Shown one piece after another: positions 1 to 8,753 of a stretch of DNA of 64,000 nucleotides (position 1 is the first letter of the stretch; each line of letters opens with the position of its first letter). This DNA is from an uncultured Draconibacterium sp. (GTDB taxonomy: Bacteria; Bacteroidota; Bacteroidia; Bacteroidales; Prolixibacteraceae): contig NZ_OY781884.1 of the NCBI RefSeq assembly GCF_963677155.1, positions 1,410,001 through 1,474,000 of the forward strand, given 5' to 3'. The position numbers were made by a program, and so were the translations under genes. Below the pieces are notes generated by a model, which made no database searches, was not told the DNA's origin, and saw only the letters and a list, made by a program, of their open reading frames with translations.

Positions 1-869
1 CTATACGTGCGTAGAAACTTGTTTTGCTTTGCCAGTTGCCGGGCAGCCAGCGCACATACGGTGCTCGAATCCATCCCGCCGCTGAGGGTCGCTGCCACCG
101 GTTTATACGATCGAAGGCGAGCTGCTACGGCTTTATTCATATTGTCCAGCAGGTCTTCGCAATAAGCTTTCAGTGTTAAGCCCGGTTTCTCCTGAATATC
201 TTTATAATCCCAATAGCGATTGATGGTTGCATCTGTTTTGGTAACAGTAAACGCGTGAGACGGCAGTAGCCGCTTAATACCTTTGTAATAGGTTTTATCA
301 AAATCACCGGGCCAAACCACCAGTAGGCGGGCAATCAGCAGTTCGTCAATTTCTTTCGTGATAAAAGGAAGCGGTAAAAGCCCTTTGCTGGATGATGCAA
401 AAGCAATGACTTTATCATCGATGTAATAGTCAATGGCGGTATAGTCCCATTGGTCGCGGGCAATAAACAGCTTTTGGCTGTCGGTATGAAAAGCAGCCAG
501 CGACCATTTACCCAACAGGTGATCCACGCATTGCTCGCCGTATTTCTGGTAAGCTTGCAGTATTAAATCACCATCGGGAATTGTGGGTTGTTGATTTGCC
601 GGAATATTCAGAAGTGTAAAAAGTTCATCGCGGTTATCAATTCGGCCTTCTGCAATAAACAGTAAATGAGCTGCTTCCAGGTATTGGGGCATATTTTCGT
701 TTACTGCTTCGGGGGTGTTATAGGTGAGCATATGCCCGAAGCCACAATTGCCCTGTATGTTAAACTGGTATTTCTCGTGCGGAAAATGCTGCATTCCGCT
801 GTACATTAATTCCAATTCATTGGAAACGGGTTTTCCATCTCTGTAAAATACTGCGAAAATAACGCTCAT
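1..869 (-). CDS. Lasso peptide cyclase / asparagine synthetase homologue (partial)
   Basis: The gene starts with ATG at 869 and runs off the left edge, giving 289 codons of a protein that is normally about 600. The N-terminal part (residues 1 to about 200) resembles a class II glutamine amidotransferase domain, but residue 2 is Ser (MSVIFAVFYR), so the catalytic Cys needed for glutaminase activity is absent. Around residue 262 the synthetase domain opens with the PP-loop SGGMDSS, which binds ATP. Loss of Cys2 with a kept PP-loop is typical of lasso cyclases, which adenylate an Asp/Glu side chain and close the macrolactam ring. A precursor-like gene lies 93 bases upstream on the same strand, which supports this role. 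A plain asparagine synthetase-like protein is the alternative. The B1 (RRE) and B2 (protease) genes would lie beyond the edge. Confidence 0.82.
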   Translation of the reverse strand, partial: MSVIFAVFYRDGKPVSNELELMYSGMQHFPHEKYQFNIQGNCGFGHMLTYNTPEAVNENMPQYLEAAHLLFIAEGRIDNRDELFTLLNIPANQQPTIPDGDLILQAYQKYGEQCVDHLLGKWSLAAFHTDSQKLFIARDQWDYTAIDYYIDDKVIAFASSSKGLLPLPFITKEIDELLIARLLVVWPGDFDKTYYKGIKRLLPSHAFTVTKTDATINRYWDYKDIQEKPGLTLKAYCEDLLDNMNKAVAARLRSYKPVAATLSGGMDSSTVCALAARQLAKQNKFLRTY

Positions 870-962
870 TTTTTATAGCTTAAGAAAGGTCATATGTCGA
901 ACAAAACAATCACTTTTTATGGAAACAGCTATTTTTAAATCAAAATAACAACTTTGTGGATT

Positions 963-1091
963 TTAGGAAAAACTAGTAAAGTCTCCACTATAGATAGTAC
1001 CACCGCCTTTTGTCCCGTCATTTAGATCAATGACCCTGATTTCCGGGGTTTCCCAGGTTTCATTCAATTGGGTTTCTTCTTGTTCTTTCAT
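963..1091 (-). CDS. Putative lasso peptide precursor (42 aa)
   Basis: This small gene has ATG at 1091 and TAA at 963-965. The leader (residues 1-28) is acidic and carries WETPEIRVIDL, matching the aromatic-x-x-Pro-x-hydrophobic motif that the RRE/B1 protein recognises in lasso leaders. It ends Gly-Thr-Lys, placing the conserved Thr at position -2 of the cut. The predicted core GGGTIYSGDFTSFS (residues 29-42) begins with Gly and has Asp at core position 9, so a Gly1-Asp9 ring of nine residues with a five-residue tail is possible. An eight-residue ring from the second Gly is less likely because the Thr would then be at -3. The cyclase-like gene follows directly on the same strand. No Shine-Dalgarno sequence is visible, as usual in this phylum. 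Product class is inferred from motif and context. Confidence 0.78.
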   Translation of the reverse strand: MKEQEETQLNETWETPEIRVIDLNDGTKGGGTIYSGDFTSFS

Positions 1092-1135: not shown

Positions 1136-1359
1136 TTAGAAGCAAATATCCAATAAAAATTCGAATCTTTCAAATCCATTACGATATATTTTCATTAACT
1201 GTTCGATGTTGTTATCGAACATATACCCGAATCCACAATTGCCTTGCACGGAAAGGCATGTTTCTCTTGCGGGAAATGTTTCATCCCTCCGTACATTAAT
1301 TCCAATTCATTGGAAACAAGTTTTCCTTCCCGGTAAAACAGTCCAAATAAAGTACTCAT
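1136..1359 (-). pseudogene. Truncated, frameshifted second copy of the lasso cyclase start
   Basis: From ATG at 1359 the reading frame gives MSTLFGLFYREGKLVSNELE and onward to HFPQEKHAF, closely matching the first 34 residues of the intact cyclase at 869 (MSVIFAVFYRDGKPVSNELE...). After that a frame change is needed to keep the match: in the new frame the DNA reads QGNCGFGYM against QGNCGFGHM of the intact gene, then similarity is lost and a stop follows at 1136. Only about 45 recognisable codons of a gene of about 600 codons remain. It is most simply read as the remnant of a duplicated precursor-cyclase unit. Confidence 0.75.
1143..1174 (-). promoter_or_regulatory. Candidate sigma-ABfr promoter for the lasso locus
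   Basis: Read leftward, TTTG (1171-1174) is followed after 20 bases by GATATTTG (1143-1150), one mismatch from the Bacteroidota -7 consensus TAnnTTTG. Transcription would start near 1136, giving an mRNA leader of about 45 bases before the precursor ATG. The site lies inside the decayed cyclase copy. Confidence 0.4.
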
Positions 1360-1537
1360 TAGCGATTTGGGTTCATTTTTCGTACTGGTAAACATAAGAA
1401 AAAACTGGAGAAACGAAGTACCAGGAGCGTTTTCTTCATAGCGAACGCATCAGAGTTTCATTTCCCCAGCCTGTATTTGTATTACTCTATGTATTTATTA
1501 AACGAATATAAAAGCGTGTCTCATTTATTTATATCCC

Positions 1538-2206
1538 CTATTTACAGTACGATAAGCGTATACCACTTAATAATGCGATTCCTGATATCGGACTAAAATC
1601 AACGGTTAATCCGCCCTCATCTTCAACTTCCGCCTCAAATTCGAATGATACCGCTCTTTTACTTCCGTAATTCTGCTCCAGATTCAGATTTTTAACAACT
1701 TCCTTTCCATTAACAAGAATATCAAACTCACGAGGCTCATCAGCCTCCTCGTCTGTATTGTTTGTCGAAAAATTATAAATCAGGTCATCCTTTTTTTCTC
1801 TGGATATATACTCCTGAAAACAAAGAGTTAGTTTATACTTTCCATTTGGTACATCAAACCTATAGCTGCTAATTCCTTCTACAAAAGTTTGATACAACGG
1901 ATCACAATCCGATCCAAGGATGTTATCTGAAATACCGGTCTTAGCTGGTTGTCCTTTTGTTACATATGGTGCTCCTCCAACATAGCCCCATGAATCAGGA
2001 GTATACTCTCTGTCTGGGATCCACAAGACTTTGGTCTCAGGATCATAAAAAGATACTTTTGCCCCAACATTGATTGCCAGATCTTTTATACCATCCTTTT
2101 TTATATTAGCAGGTATAACTGTATAATCTATTGTAATTTGATCGGAATGTTTGTTATTGCTAACAGCTGACAAGTAGTTCTTTCCATCCCGAAAAGGAAC
2201 CTCAAA
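1538..2206 (-). pseudogene. 3' fragment of a glycoside hydrolase (malectin-like domain)
   Basis: About 210 residues ending at TAA (1538-1540) form a beta-rich domain with INVGAKVSFYDPETKVLW, EYTPDSWGYVGG and a closing SGIRLSYCK. This resembles the malectin-like carbohydrate-binding domain at the C-terminus of Bacteroidota GH2 beta-galactosidases. The residues before it, FEVPFRDGKNYLSAV, also look like the end of a GH2 linker domain, so the frame does not begin at a natural start; the first possible start is a TTG at 2173. The N-terminal catalytic part is missing and the sequence joins an integrase fragment in another frame near 2200. It is probably not expressed as a working protein. Confidence 0.6.
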
Positions 2207-2664
2207 ATATCTTTCCGAAAATAAAACTCTTTTACAAAATCCTTCAATCTAGTTAAAGAAGTACGATAGTGTTTTAAAGTTCCTTTAGAATAACCTTTAC
2301 CTAACTTTTTCTCAATAGATTCGATAACTGCCTCAAATAGCCCAATAAAATAATCTTTCGACCTTGTACCTGTAATTTTCTCTTTTATAGTGTAGATATC
2401 AAAATCATTCCGGCCTGCTTCCAATTGATTATAGATATCATAAATTCCTGATACAAATTCCAATAAGCTATTATTAAGAATTCTAATTTCCTGAGAGTTT
2501 CCGGTAATTTCCTGCCTTGATTTATCCCAATTATCTACATCCACAAAAATTGACGTTGACAGCTCAATTCTTCGTCCATCCATCACACAACGCGCGTAAA
2601 CAGGGCATTTCCCACTTTTCTTACTCTTTGATTTCTTTAACAGAAGACTAATTCTGATTCTCAT
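2128..2664 (-). pseudogene. Truncated tyrosine recombinase (Bacteroidota phage-type integrase, N-terminal part)
   Basis: The ATG at 2664 opens an arm-type DNA-binding domain (residues 1 to about 60; RISLLLKKSKSKKSGKCPVY, then IELSTSIFVDVDNWD) and the beginning of a SAM-like core-binding domain (about 105-160; GYSKGTLKHYRTSLTRLKDF). Family members are about 400 residues long and carry the catalytic R-H-R-Y set in the C-terminal half, which is entirely missing here. After about residue 160 the frame runs into glycoside-hydrolase DNA and stops at 2128. The gene lies about 290 bases from a tRNA-Lys gene, a common target of such integrases, so it may be the remnant of an element that inserted there. 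Confidence 0.75.
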
Positions 2665-2948: not shown

Positions 2949-3024
2949 TGGTGACTCAGCTGGGTTTCGAACCCAGGACCCCATCCTTAAAAGGGATGTG
3001 CTCTACCAACTGAGCTACTGAGTC
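2949..3024 (-). tRNA. tRNA-Lys (anticodon UUU), copy 1
   Basis: A full cloverleaf is visible on the minus strand. The acceptor stem is GACTCAG/CTGAGTC, the anticodon stem CATCC/GGATG holds the loop CTTTTAA with anticodon TTT, and the T-arm is CTGGG-TTCGAAA-CCCAG. The discriminator is A and the CCA end is encoded (2949-2951). It is followed by a hairpin terminator and preceded by its own sigma-ABfr promoter. Confidence 0.95.
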
Positions 3025-3385: not shown

Positions 3386-3461
3386 TGGTGACTCAGCTGG
3401 GTCTCGAACCCAGGACCCCATCCTTAAAAGGGATGTGCTCTACCAACTGAGCTACTGAGTC
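3386..3461 (-). tRNA. tRNA-Lys (anticodon UUU), copy 2
   Basis: This has the same cloverleaf as copy 1, with anticodon TTT in the loop CTTTTAA and an encoded CCA (3386-3388). The T loop reads TTCGAGA instead of TTCGAAA. It has its own promoter and terminator. Confidence 0.95.
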
Positions 3462-5809: not shown

Positions 5810-6718
5810 ATGGATAATTATTCATTAACCAACCTTCGTGAACTGGAGGCAGAAGCCATCCACATCATCCGCGAGGTGGCAGCCGAGTTCGAAAATCCAG
5901 TAATGCTTTATTCCATCGGGAAAGACTCGTCGGTAATGGTTCGCCTGGCCGAAAAAGCATTTTATCCCGGTAAAGTTCCCTTTCCGTTGATGCACATCGA
6001 TTCGAAATGGAAATTCCAGGAAATGATCGAATTCCGCGACAACTATGCGAAAGAAAAAGGTTGGGATTTGATTGTACATTACAACAAAGAAGGTTTTGAA
6101 AGTGGCGTTGGTCCGTTTACTCACGGAAGTAAAGTACACACCGATATTATGAAAACACAGGCCCTGCTTGGTGGTCTGAATAAATACAAATTTGATGCTG
6201 CTTTTGGTGGTGCCCGTCGTGATGAGGAAAAATCGCGTGCAAAAGAACGTATCTTCTCGTTCCGCGACAAATTCCATCAGTGGGACCCGAAAAACCAGCG
6301 TCCTGAGCTTTGGAATATATACAACAGCCGTGTTCAGAAAGGTGAATCCATTCGTGTATTCCCTATCTCGAACTGGACAGAACTTGATATCTGGCAGTAC
6401 ATTCGATTGGAGAACATCCCCATCGTTCCGCTTTATTATGCAAAAGAGCGCCCGGTGGTTGACATGGACGGCAGCTTGATTATGGTTGACGACGAACGAA
6501 TGCCAAAAGAATTGCGCGATAAAGCAGAAATGCGCAAAGTACGTTTCCGTACGCTGGGTTGTTACCCGCTTACCGGTGCTATTGAATCGGAAGCCGATAC
6601 CATCGAAAAAATTGTTGAAGAAATGATGACCGTTACCGTTTCGGAACGTACAACGCGTGTGATCGACTTCGACCAGGATGCAAGTATGGAACAGAAAAAA
6701 AGAGAAGGGTATTTCTAG
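5810..6718 (+). CDS. cysD: Sulfate adenylyltransferase subunit 2
   Basis: CysD catalyses formation of adenylyl sulfate (APS) from ATP and sulfate together with the GTPase CysN. The 302-residue length is normal. The PP-loop of this ATP pyrophosphatase-type enzyme is SIGKDSS (residues 35-41), and family blocks [27 protein letters not shown] and [11 protein letters not shown] are all present. It lies between the SLC13 permease and cysNC on the same strand. The 115-base gap to cysNC is filled by a palindromic repeat element. The start ATG gives the expected N-terminus ([17 protein letters not shown]). Confidence 0.96.
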
Positions 6719-6735
6719 GAAGGTTCAACATTCAT

Positions 6736-6814
6736 TGTCATTTCGAGAGAGAAAAACGAACGAGAGATCTCTTACATTAAAACAGATTTCTCCTCCTACG
6801 TCGTCGAAATGACA
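6736..6814. repeat. Palindromic intergenic repeat between cysD and cysN
   Basis: The element has 11-base perfect terminal inverted repeats, TGTCATTTCGA (6736-6746) and TCGAAATGACA (6804-6814), and an inner pair GAGATCT/AGATTTCTC. Sequences of this kind are scattered repeats in Bacteroidota genomes (recalled, not searched). In the transcript it would fold into one long hairpin between the two cistrons. Confidence 0.65.
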
Positions 6815-6833
6815 GCTTAATTAAAGCAAAGAA

Positions 6834-8753
6834 ATGACTACAAAAAAATTAAATATACAAGAGTTCCTTGACCAGGACCAGAAAAAGGATTTATTACGCT
6901 TACTAACTGCAGGATCGGTTGACGATGGCAAATCAACGCTTATCGGTCGATTGATGTTCGACAGTAAAATGTTGTACGAAGACCAATTGGCAGCTCTGGA
7001 ACGCGACAGCAAACGTGTGGGACATGCCGGAGAAGACATCGACTATGCACTGCTGCTTGACGGATTAAAAGCCGAGCGCGAACAGGGGATTACCATTGAT
7101 GTAGCTTACCGCTACTTCTCTACTGCAAAGCGTAAATTTATTATTGCCGATACTCCGGGACACGAGCAGTACACTCGTAACATGATTACCGGTGGATCAA
7201 CTGCCAACCTCGCGATCATCCTTATTGATGCCCGCCACGGGGTAATTACACAAACCAAACGCCACACTTATCTGGCTAACCTTTTGGGAATTAAACACGT
7301 GGTGGTAGCTATTAACAAAATGGACCTGGTAGACTACAGTCAGGAGCGTTTTGAGGAAATTAAAGCCACTTACAAAGCGTTTGTTACTCAGCTTGATGTG
7401 CCGGATGTAAACTTTATTCCACTGTCTGCTTTAAAAGGCGACAACGTGGTGGAAAAAGGCGATAACATGAATTGGTACCATGGTCCTTGTCTGTTGGAGT
7501 TTTTGGAGAACGTTCATGTAAGTTCCGACCGTAACTTCGACGACCTGCGTTACCCGGTTCAGTATGTGTTACGTCCCGATATTAAGTTCCGTGGATTCTC
7601 AACATCGGTAGCTTCAGGAATTATCAAAAAAGGTGATGAAGTAATGGTTTTGCCTTCGATGAAAAAATCGAAAGTAGAAAAAATCGTTACCTACGATGGC
7701 GAGAAAGACTATGCTTTCCCTCCGGAGTCGGTAACCGTTACGCTGGAAGACGAAATCGATATTTCGCGTGGCGATATGTTGGTTCACCCCGATAACCTGC
7801 CTCGTGTGGAGCGCCAGTTTGAGGCCATGCTGGTTTGGATGGAGGAAGAAGACATGAACCTTTCTACGCAGTTTTATATTAAACATGCCAACAACAATAC
7901 AAAGGCTCGTATCGACGAAATAAAATATAAAGTGGACGTAAACACGCTTGAAAAATCGAACATCGAGAAATTCAAGCTGAACGAAATTGGCCGCGTAGTT
8001 ATTACCACTACCAAACCACTTTATTTCGATCCGTATAAAAAGAACAAACAAACCGGTTCGTTCATTTTAATTGATCCGGTAACACATAACACCGTTGCGG
8101 TGGGTATGATCATTGATAAACTGGGAAGCAACAGCCTGTCATCGCGTATTACCGATGTCGACAAGGAAAAGATTGCAAAAGGTGAAGCGCTGATCAAAGC
8201 GGAAGAATATGTACAGAAGTACAACCAAAAAGGAGAAACCATCTGGATTACCGGGCTACACGGTTCAGGTAAAAACGAGCTGGCTTTTAGCCTGGAGAAA
8301 AAACTATTCGACAACGGTGCTACCGTGGTATTGATCGACGGAAGTTCAGTACGATCTGGCTTAAGCCGCGAGCTTGACTTCTCGCCTGCCGACCGCGCAG
8401 AAAACCTGCGTCGTGTGGCACACATTTGTAAAATGCTGAACGATCAGGGAATTATTACCATTGCATCATACATTTCCAGAAATGAATCGTTGCGCGACCA
8501 GGTGGCAGAGATAATTGGCAAAGACCGTTTCCATATGTTCTACATGGATGCAGATCTGGAATATTGCAAAAACAATAAACCGGAATTGTACGAATTGCTG
8601 GAACAAGGAAAAACAAGTGGATTACCGGGTGTAGATTTGGAATACGAAGCACCAGGCAATGCAAAACTGGTTTTCAAACCGGAGCAAAACGAAGAAAATC
8701 TGGATGCTATTCTGGATTATTTAGCGCAGAACAAAGTATTTCCTAACCACTAA
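6834..8753 (+). CDS. cysN: Bifunctional sulfate adenylyltransferase subunit 1 / adenylylsulfate kinase
   Basis: Residues 1 to about 430 are the CysN GTPase that drives APS synthesis by CysD: G1 GSVDDGKS (27-34), G3 DTPGHEQY, G4 NKMD, then beta-barrel domains. Residues from about 460 to 639 are a fused CysC domain, which would phosphorylate APS to PAPS. That domain departs from the norm: its P-loop is GLHGSGKNE (about 474), with Asn where Ser/Thr binds magnesium, and DGSSVRSGL replaces the usual DGDNVRHGL. The downstream fold ([13 protein letters not shown]) is kept. PAPS output points to sulfation or to a PAPS reductase elsewhere; none is seen here. It is followed 11 bases later by the epimerase gene. 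Confidence 0.93.

Follow-up and report, generated by a model that had tools for sequence, protein, structure and literature searches.

A kinase-containing lasso peptide locus with seven candidate precursors and one predicted enzyme set in Draconibacterium

What does a short reading frame beside a cyclase-like gene at the edge of a stretch of Draconibacterium DNA encode, and to what kind of system does it belong? The DNA studied (the window, 64,000 nucleotides, G000:C1:1410001-1474000) comes from a one-contig 5.27 Mb genome of an uncultured Draconibacterium sp., and the sequence extending leftward from it was also read. An earlier note, made from the sequence of the window, had proposed a lasso-peptide locus at the window edge. 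Both the locus and its class were right, but one of seven precursors had been seen and, in the complete genome, the bulk of the locus lies to the left of the window, outside window 1-1091. Our analysis supports that reading of a lasso system as right but incomplete, with one-seventh of the precursors, no kinase and no sign that the exporter is distant; missing from it were the seven precursors, the divergent B1 gene, the direction of the array, the far exporter and a kinase that predicts a modified C-terminus. Seven short genes and one shared enzyme set probably make very small lasso peptides, the last residue of which is predicted to be phosphorylated. We consider it highly probable that the locus is a class II-type lasso system in which one enzyme set would serve seven substrates.

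The features of the locus are presented in Table 1. B1, K, B2, the cyclase and the seven precursors lie within a 5.8 kb stretch in the order B1< K> B2> A(1-6)> <C <A7, with B1 divergent and K, B2 and the six-precursor array all directed toward the cyclase. The earlier note had staked its reading on B1 and B2 genes beyond the cyclase, and both were found 1.9-3.7 kb beyond the end of the cyclase gene with the HPr-kinase-like gene between them. An ABC exporter had been expected there too; a candidate lies about 30 kb away, not beside the cyclase. The 93-base gap described between precursor 7 and the cyclase frame (start 869, minus strand) was confirmed. Beyond precursor 7, the cyclase 5'-end remnant lies in a frame open from its start codon (window 1195-1395). 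Another AsnB-like frame lies far off, at G000:C1 2127572.

Table 1. Positions of the lasso locus features on contig C1 of the genome (G000) and, where marked, in the window.
Feature	Position	Strand	Remark
ABC transporter (D)	G000:C1 1372076-1373773	-	about 30 kb left of core genes
NTP_transf_5 protein (N, nucleotidyltransferase)	G000:C1 1373766-1374788	-	beside ABC transporter
B1 (RRE/PqqD protein)	G000:C1 1405300-1405584	-	family matches
K (HPr-kinase-like kinase)	G000:C1 1405632-1406603	+	family matches
B2 (transglutaminase-like peptidase)	G000:C1 1406613-1407068	+	family match
Precursor 1	G000:C1 1407154-1407309	+	
Precursor 2	G000:C1 1407428-1407583	+	
Precursor 3	G000:C1 1407726-1407881	+	inner ATG of listed ORF
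Precursor 4	G000:C1 1408058-1408222	+	
Precursor 5	G000:C1 1408371-1408529	+	
Precursor 6	G000:C1 1408812-1408973	+	GTG start
Cyclase C, 624 aa	G000:C1 1408995-1410869	-	window 1-869 = first 289 codons
Precursor 7, 42 aa	G000:C1 1410963-1411091 = window 963-1091	-	
Precursor 7, leader	window 1008-1091	-	
Precursor 7, WETPE leader motif	window 1041-1055	-	Trp version of B1-read YxxP motif
Precursor 7, core GGGTIYSGDFTSFS	window 966-1007	-	
Precursor 7, stop	window 963-965	-	
Cyclase 5'-end remnant beyond precursor 7	G000:C1 1411240-1411359 = window 1240-1359	-	63% identical to cyclase residues 1-40

The best NCBIfam match of the cyclase was the lasso cyclase model NF033535 (E 2.8e-82, 277 bits, under its cut-off of 525), with the asparagine synthase model far weaker (E 5.1e-42). 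As had been read from the window, the enzyme lacks the glutaminase Cys and keeps SGGMDSS; its N-terminus, MSVIFAVFYRDG, starts MSVIF without a catalytic Cys at position 2, as in lasso-type AsnB-like enzymes. Homology to a housekeeping AsnB beside an unconserved frame, which the note had named as the finding that would overturn its reading, was not what we observed: the lasso model gave the better score and a precursor is kept beside related cyclases. B1 matched PF05402 (PqqD) with 54 bits, above the 23.4 cut-off, and NF033536 with E 2.6e-19 and 69.1 bits, under the cut-off of 80. B2 matched NF033537 with 80.6 bits, over the curated cut-off of 33, and its catalytic Cys and His are retained (MCFEQ, AHAWL). 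Against HPr kinase models K scored under the curated cut-offs of both Pfam and NCBIfam, its PF07475 match being under the gathering score. When five kinases were aligned (two from array-type loci and three from neighbouring sets), residues H138, G153, G158, K159, S160, D176 and D177 were invariant in 5/5; H138, K159, D176 and D177 match the His-Lys-Asp-Asp motif of lasso kinases given in the available parts of PMC9266682 and PMC10368454, and the Walker motif has Arg where BsfK, in the same part of PMC10368454, carries the middle Gly. In a PDB sequence search only distant relatives came up: HPr kinases, at best with E 5.7e-4, and amidotransferases, at best with E 9.5e-10.

Among 140 genomes of the family, the cyclase was found at E <= 1e-60 in two, this genome and a congener, G070, in which it is 83% identical. 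At E <= 1e-40, matches occurred in 15 of 393 genomes sampled across the order and in 17 of 395 sampled across the phylum, this genome being counted in both. The G070 order is B1<, K>, B2>, precursors>, <cyclase, <precursor, <cyclase remnant, <precursor, with one precursor directly upstream of the cyclase and a second further upstream; unlike the otherwise matching layout here, the G070 array is interrupted by two unrelated genes (L024 6387-8840). Relatives of D and N lie 1.6-4.3 kb from B1 in G070, N ending 1.6 kb from B1 with one frame between. Six G070 precursors begin with an ordinary start codon, and each of them bears the marks described below. A precursor profile returned eight frames at the G070 locus, the extra two without ATG, GTG or TTG in the stretch read, and eight places in the genome studied here (the seven and one of the neighbouring sets); it was built from 13 of the same frames, and the new finds are only the two G070 frames and the neighbouring-set frame. 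In the other 138 genomes it gave one weak match (E 6.4e-4), inside a 539-aa frame. A contig scan with the cyclase alone gave no matches; the scan with the cyclase alignment found Bacteroides ihuae (63%) and the MAG CTSoil_024 (61%), both with a precursor ending in Ser immediately upstream of the related cyclase. At the B. ihuae cyclase locus K is a 50-codon fragment only, and a set of B1, B2, K, sulfotransferase, D and N is found on a different contig. An intact K precedes precursor and cyclase in CTSoil_024, with D, N, B1 and B2 within 8 kb.

The 42-residue frame, MKEQEETQLNETWETPEIRVIDLNDGTKGGGTIYSGDFTSFS, was confirmed as a lasso precursor (precursor 7), and the hallmarks first read in it (WETPE, Thr at -2, Asp at core position 9) recur in the array and the intact G070 precursors in the general form W-x-T-P-E, Thr at -2 and an acid at core position 8 or 9. 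Its core is GGGTIYSGDFTSFS; cores 1-6 are NTLGSGGDFVGRS, LHQNYGSDAVAMS, NGIFGPSDGSSYS, NGGSIVNYDGSGPFSS, TGSNSVVQDSLFLS and SGIYSPMLDGNWSSS. Thr at -2, Asp at core position 8 or 9 and a last Ser were each present in 7/7 precursors here. When the six intact G070 precursors were included, W-x-T-P-E was found in all, the leader alignment had W24, T26, P27 and E28 invariant in 13/13 (E25 in 12/13), and Thr -2, an acid at core 8/9 and a terminal Ser each occurred in 13/13. In 20,000 shuffles of each core the highest counts reached were 8/13 for the acid and 9/13 for the terminal Ser, a comparison that overstates independence because the 13 precursors share descent. The informative part of these predicted cores is that the fixed positions stay constant while most of the core varies. 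The distance from Trp to core is 16 residues in precursor 7 and 15 in the other 12; by our own count it is also 16 in the precursors beside the related cyclases of B. ihuae and CTSoil_024. Cys is absent from all 13 cores, which leaves none for a disulfide.

Core lengths here are 13-16 residues and the first residues are Asn, Leu, Thr, Ser and Gly. The 62 lasso peptides tabulated in a review (PMC12427821) start with G, S, C, A, L and W only, so Asn and Thr here and Met in G070 are new to that table. Behind the ring residue, precursors 1-7 have tails of 5, 5, 5, 7, 5, 6 and 5 residues, and the earlier remark that five residues is short for the class holds: the shortest tail in the table is six, taking the last acid at positions 7-9 as ring residue. 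Such tails (5/7 here, 9/13 with the G070 precursors) give some weight to products that are unthreaded head-to-side-chain macrolactams from the same enzymes and cores, on the argument that five residues behind the ring are too few for a loop and a plug together. We nevertheless regard this outcome as unlikely, since the enzymes are lasso-type, huascopeptin is a lasso peptide of 13 residues and hence a precedent for size (PMC12427821), and a phosphate on the last Ser could serve as plug. The threaded product is our preferred reading, and "lasso" in the strict, threaded sense is used here as a prediction only.

According to the available parts of PMC9266682 and PMC8498205, known lasso kinases, which carry the His-Lys-Asp-Asp motif, phosphorylate the C-terminal Ser of the linear precursor. 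Paeninodin and pseudomycoidin are the only two of the 62 table peptides with Ser as last residue (PMC12427821), and both come from kinase clusters (available part of PMC9266682). The kinase and the terminal Ser together suggest paeninodin-type phosphorylation of the last Ser of the predicted peptides here. The site is not certain, because BsfK modifies Ser3 instead, in a precursor ending in Asp (available part of PMC10368454). The sub-cut-off scores of K, the Arg in its Walker motif and the fragmentary K at the B. ihuae locus also count against the proposed system. A homologue of K (E <= 1e-6) was present in all 31 genomes searched for it. Pattern scans, from which hits unlike a cyclase-adjacent lasso precursor were dropped by eye, yielded a candidate precursor in another 16 genomes or records, of which 11 end in Ser and five otherwise (G306, G779, G722, G557, G853); in the remaining K-bearing genomes the scans gave no usable candidate precursor, that of G794 being without the Thr. 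A general rule across Bacteroidota that a kinase means a terminal Ser was dropped, as 5/16 candidates end otherwise.

In the pathway we propose, B1 would bind each precursor via W-x-T-P-E-(hydrophobic). K would act on the still linear precursor, phosphorylating its C-terminal Ser, and B2 would cleave one residue past Thr -2. The cyclase would then activate Asp8 or Asp9 and close the ring around the tail by linking that residue to the freshly exposed N-terminal Asn, Leu, Thr, Ser or Gly. Export would fall to the distant ABC transporter, which in G070 lies near the matching set; such an exporter is common, though not universal, in class II lasso clusters. The nucleotidyltransferase beside this transporter may attach a sugar to the phosphate in the manner of PsmN. 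Genes, motifs, conservation and duplication remnants are the basis from which we infer every enzymatic step, threading, export and role, the last being most likely that of a narrow-range antagonist or signal.

The DNA of the array retains traces of how it grew. Across precursors 3-6, identity is 89-93% over the 100 bases upstream of the start codon and 80-95% over the leaders; the cores align at 14/70 to 24/48. The leader DNA of precursors 3, 4 and 5 is identical over 84/84 bases, with cores aligning at only 18/51, 17/45 and 14/70. These 84-base leaders differ by 6 from two G070 leaders; uniform within a genome and different between genomes, they look as in concerted evolution. Leaders of precursors 1 and 2 are more distinct (57 of 84 for precursor 2). 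Against 500 shuffles per pair, all 6/6 leader pairs of precursors 3-6 beat every shuffle. Core pairs 3/5 and 4/5 were at chance level, two pairs exceeded it only slightly (the score was reached in 21 and in 34 of 500 shuffles) and pairs 3/4 and 3/6 were clearly above (2 and 0 of 500). Four spacers contain a copy of the 3' end of the cyclase gene, 84-138 bases long and by blastn 86-98% identical. In G070 two pieces of this end (279 and 84 bases) and two of the 5' end are present. The simplest reading would be repeated tandem duplication, on both sides of the cyclase, of a unit of precursor and adjoining cyclase end, copies 3-6 having kept their leaders and upstream DNA while the cores diverged. 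A box TTTG-N19-TATCTT, which we take to resemble the Bacteroidota -33/-7 promoter, is present in units 3-6 (4/6 array genes), each of which may be transcribed separately.

Cores 2 and 4 have recognisable G070 counterparts (LHQNYGSDAVAMS/MHQDYGNDGMSFS and NGGSIVNYDGSGPFSS/NGSIVGYDGSGFFS). The counterpart of core 4, NGSIVGYDGSGFFS, carries a quite different leader, which fits leader conversion inside the array. These data bear on a bolder reading, in which the locus would be a self-diversifying lasso library: leader and leftover cyclase end would act as homology arms importing new cores, gene conversion would keep leaders uniform, permissive enzymes would mature strongly divergent cores with seven different first residues (Asn, Leu, Thr, Ser and Gly, with Ala and Met in G070), and a terminal phosphate would plug tails shorter than any of the 62. 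Wholesale swapping of cores for unrelated DNA is weakened, with several core pairs above chance and G070 counterparts of cores 2 and 4; ordinary divergence is at work, because some core pairs exceed their shuffles and those counterparts exist, and for that reason we judge the library reading less likely and give it little credence.

Alternatively, only precursor 7, or perhaps a few others, would be used, and the tandem array would be left over from duplication and in decay. The spacers contain cyclase sequence in fragments, precursor 6 begins with GTG, 2/8 G070 precursor frames are without ATG, GTG or TTG start, and truncated or split genes occur in the neighbouring sets, all as decay would have it; but 7/7 frames are open with all the marks, the promoter-like box is kept in 4/6 array genes, and cores 2 and 4 are recognisable in G070, so we consider a decaying array improbable and favour seven predicted substrates. 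A chance frame beside a housekeeping asparagine synthetase, which the shortness of the ORF and the sub-cut-off NF033535 score might have suggested, was rejected as next to impossible, with B1, K and B2 adjoining, no Cys2, the marks in 13/13, and a profile that finds seven precursors here and eight at the conserved G070 locus.

On features readable from sequence, the locus is grouped with the kinase-containing class II lasso clusters. As described in the available parts of PMC9266682, PMC8498205 and PMC10368454, the paeninodin/PadeK, ThcoK and SyanK clusters (Bacillota, Pseudomonadota) have, like this one, B1, B2, C and an HPr-kinase homologue, together with an ABC exporter, the candidate for which is distant here, and precursors of the paeninodin type likewise have a terminal Ser, Thr -2 and Asp in the ring. 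Paeninodin has one described precursor there and a 23-residue core, against seven precursors and cores of 13-16 here; tails of 5-7, Trp for Tyr in the leader motif, its own gene order and a Bacteroidota host further distinguish our locus from that type. The pseudomycoidin (psm) cluster, from what is available on it, shares the kinase, the nucleotidyltransferase and the terminal Ser, whereas N and D are about 30 kb from the core genes here and the action of N on peptides is only putative.

Caulosegnins I-III are three products of one enzyme set with 8- and 9-residue rings, and the available part of PMC13352647 mentions no kinase in the caulosegnin/caulonodin clusters, in contrast to the kinase present here. 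Those clusters have three precursors with cores of 17-21, compared with seven and 13-16 here. Prochlorosins, a group of lanthipeptides, combine conserved leaders with divergent cores. One promiscuous enzyme acts on many substrates there (available part of PMC10783134), as we propose here, although chemistry and enzymes are other and the array here is built with cyclase-gene ends. The peptide class, class II lasso clusters and lasso kinases are already known; the predicted system is set apart by array size, short cores and tails, Asn and Thr as first residues, and duplication scars. So many diverse products per enzyme set and such short tails look unusual, and no comparable array is described among the titles and abstract starts listed on lasso peptides of Bacteroidetes or Bacteroidota, on multiple precursors and on hypervariable cores or tandem precursor genes, in a literature set that covers few subscription papers. 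Should all seven peptides be produced, a single set of cyclase, peptidase and kinase would accept Asn and Thr (Met in G070) as first residues and five-residue tails, which would bear on the minimum size of a lasso and the tolerance of lasso enzymes. The system is a natural test case for a C-terminal phosphate as plug, and the array with its duplicated cyclase ends a readable record of lasso family expansion.

Several observations were made in the surroundings. To the left of the window lies a crowded lasso superlocus (about G000:C1 1372000-1399700, L022 15000 to L009 4700; L009 is G000:C1:1395001-1414000, its positions being window positions plus 15000). It contains four further cyclase-like genes, several B1 and truncated B2 copies, HPr-kinase-like genes adjoining sulfotransferases, several truncated or split genes, and three more precursors with cores SGLAADSAEGFNYHPES, SGMYLTTEASTGHLS and SAPTLTGVEDYFTSPHIS, which have a terminal Ser and Glu at core 8 or 9. 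Kinase-sulfotransferase pairs recur in L067, L068 (B. ihuae), L069, L071 and L072, and the pairing suggests a phosphorylated and perhaps sulfated lasso family. An APS kinase (PF01583) lies beside the exporter pair (L022 17806-18438) and sulfate activation genes, cysD- and cysNC-like as named by eye, lie to the right of the locus (window 5810-8753); these could supply PAPS for the sulfotransferases.

Three phage-tail-collar domain proteins and a formyltransferase-like gene lie beside the lasso genes (L009 4734-7354, minus strand), and the same neighbours are found in CTSoil_024 (L086 9669-12419, minus strand), the assignment being by PF07484 match in L009 and by likeness in L086; no literature linking lasso peptides and tail collar was found. 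Two tRNA-Lys genes (window 2949-3024 and 3386-3461) have as neighbours a fragment with an integrase arm (Arm-DNA-bind_5) and a frame with a malectin domain (window 2128-2664 and 1538-2173), and this region is possibly the edge of a mobile island. A second copy of window bases 1508-2207, with 95% identity, lies at G000:C1:4164721-4165420. Beside small frames there is also a 253-aa frame with a YcaO domain (L009 8646-9407, minus strand), perhaps a decayed RiPP maturase.
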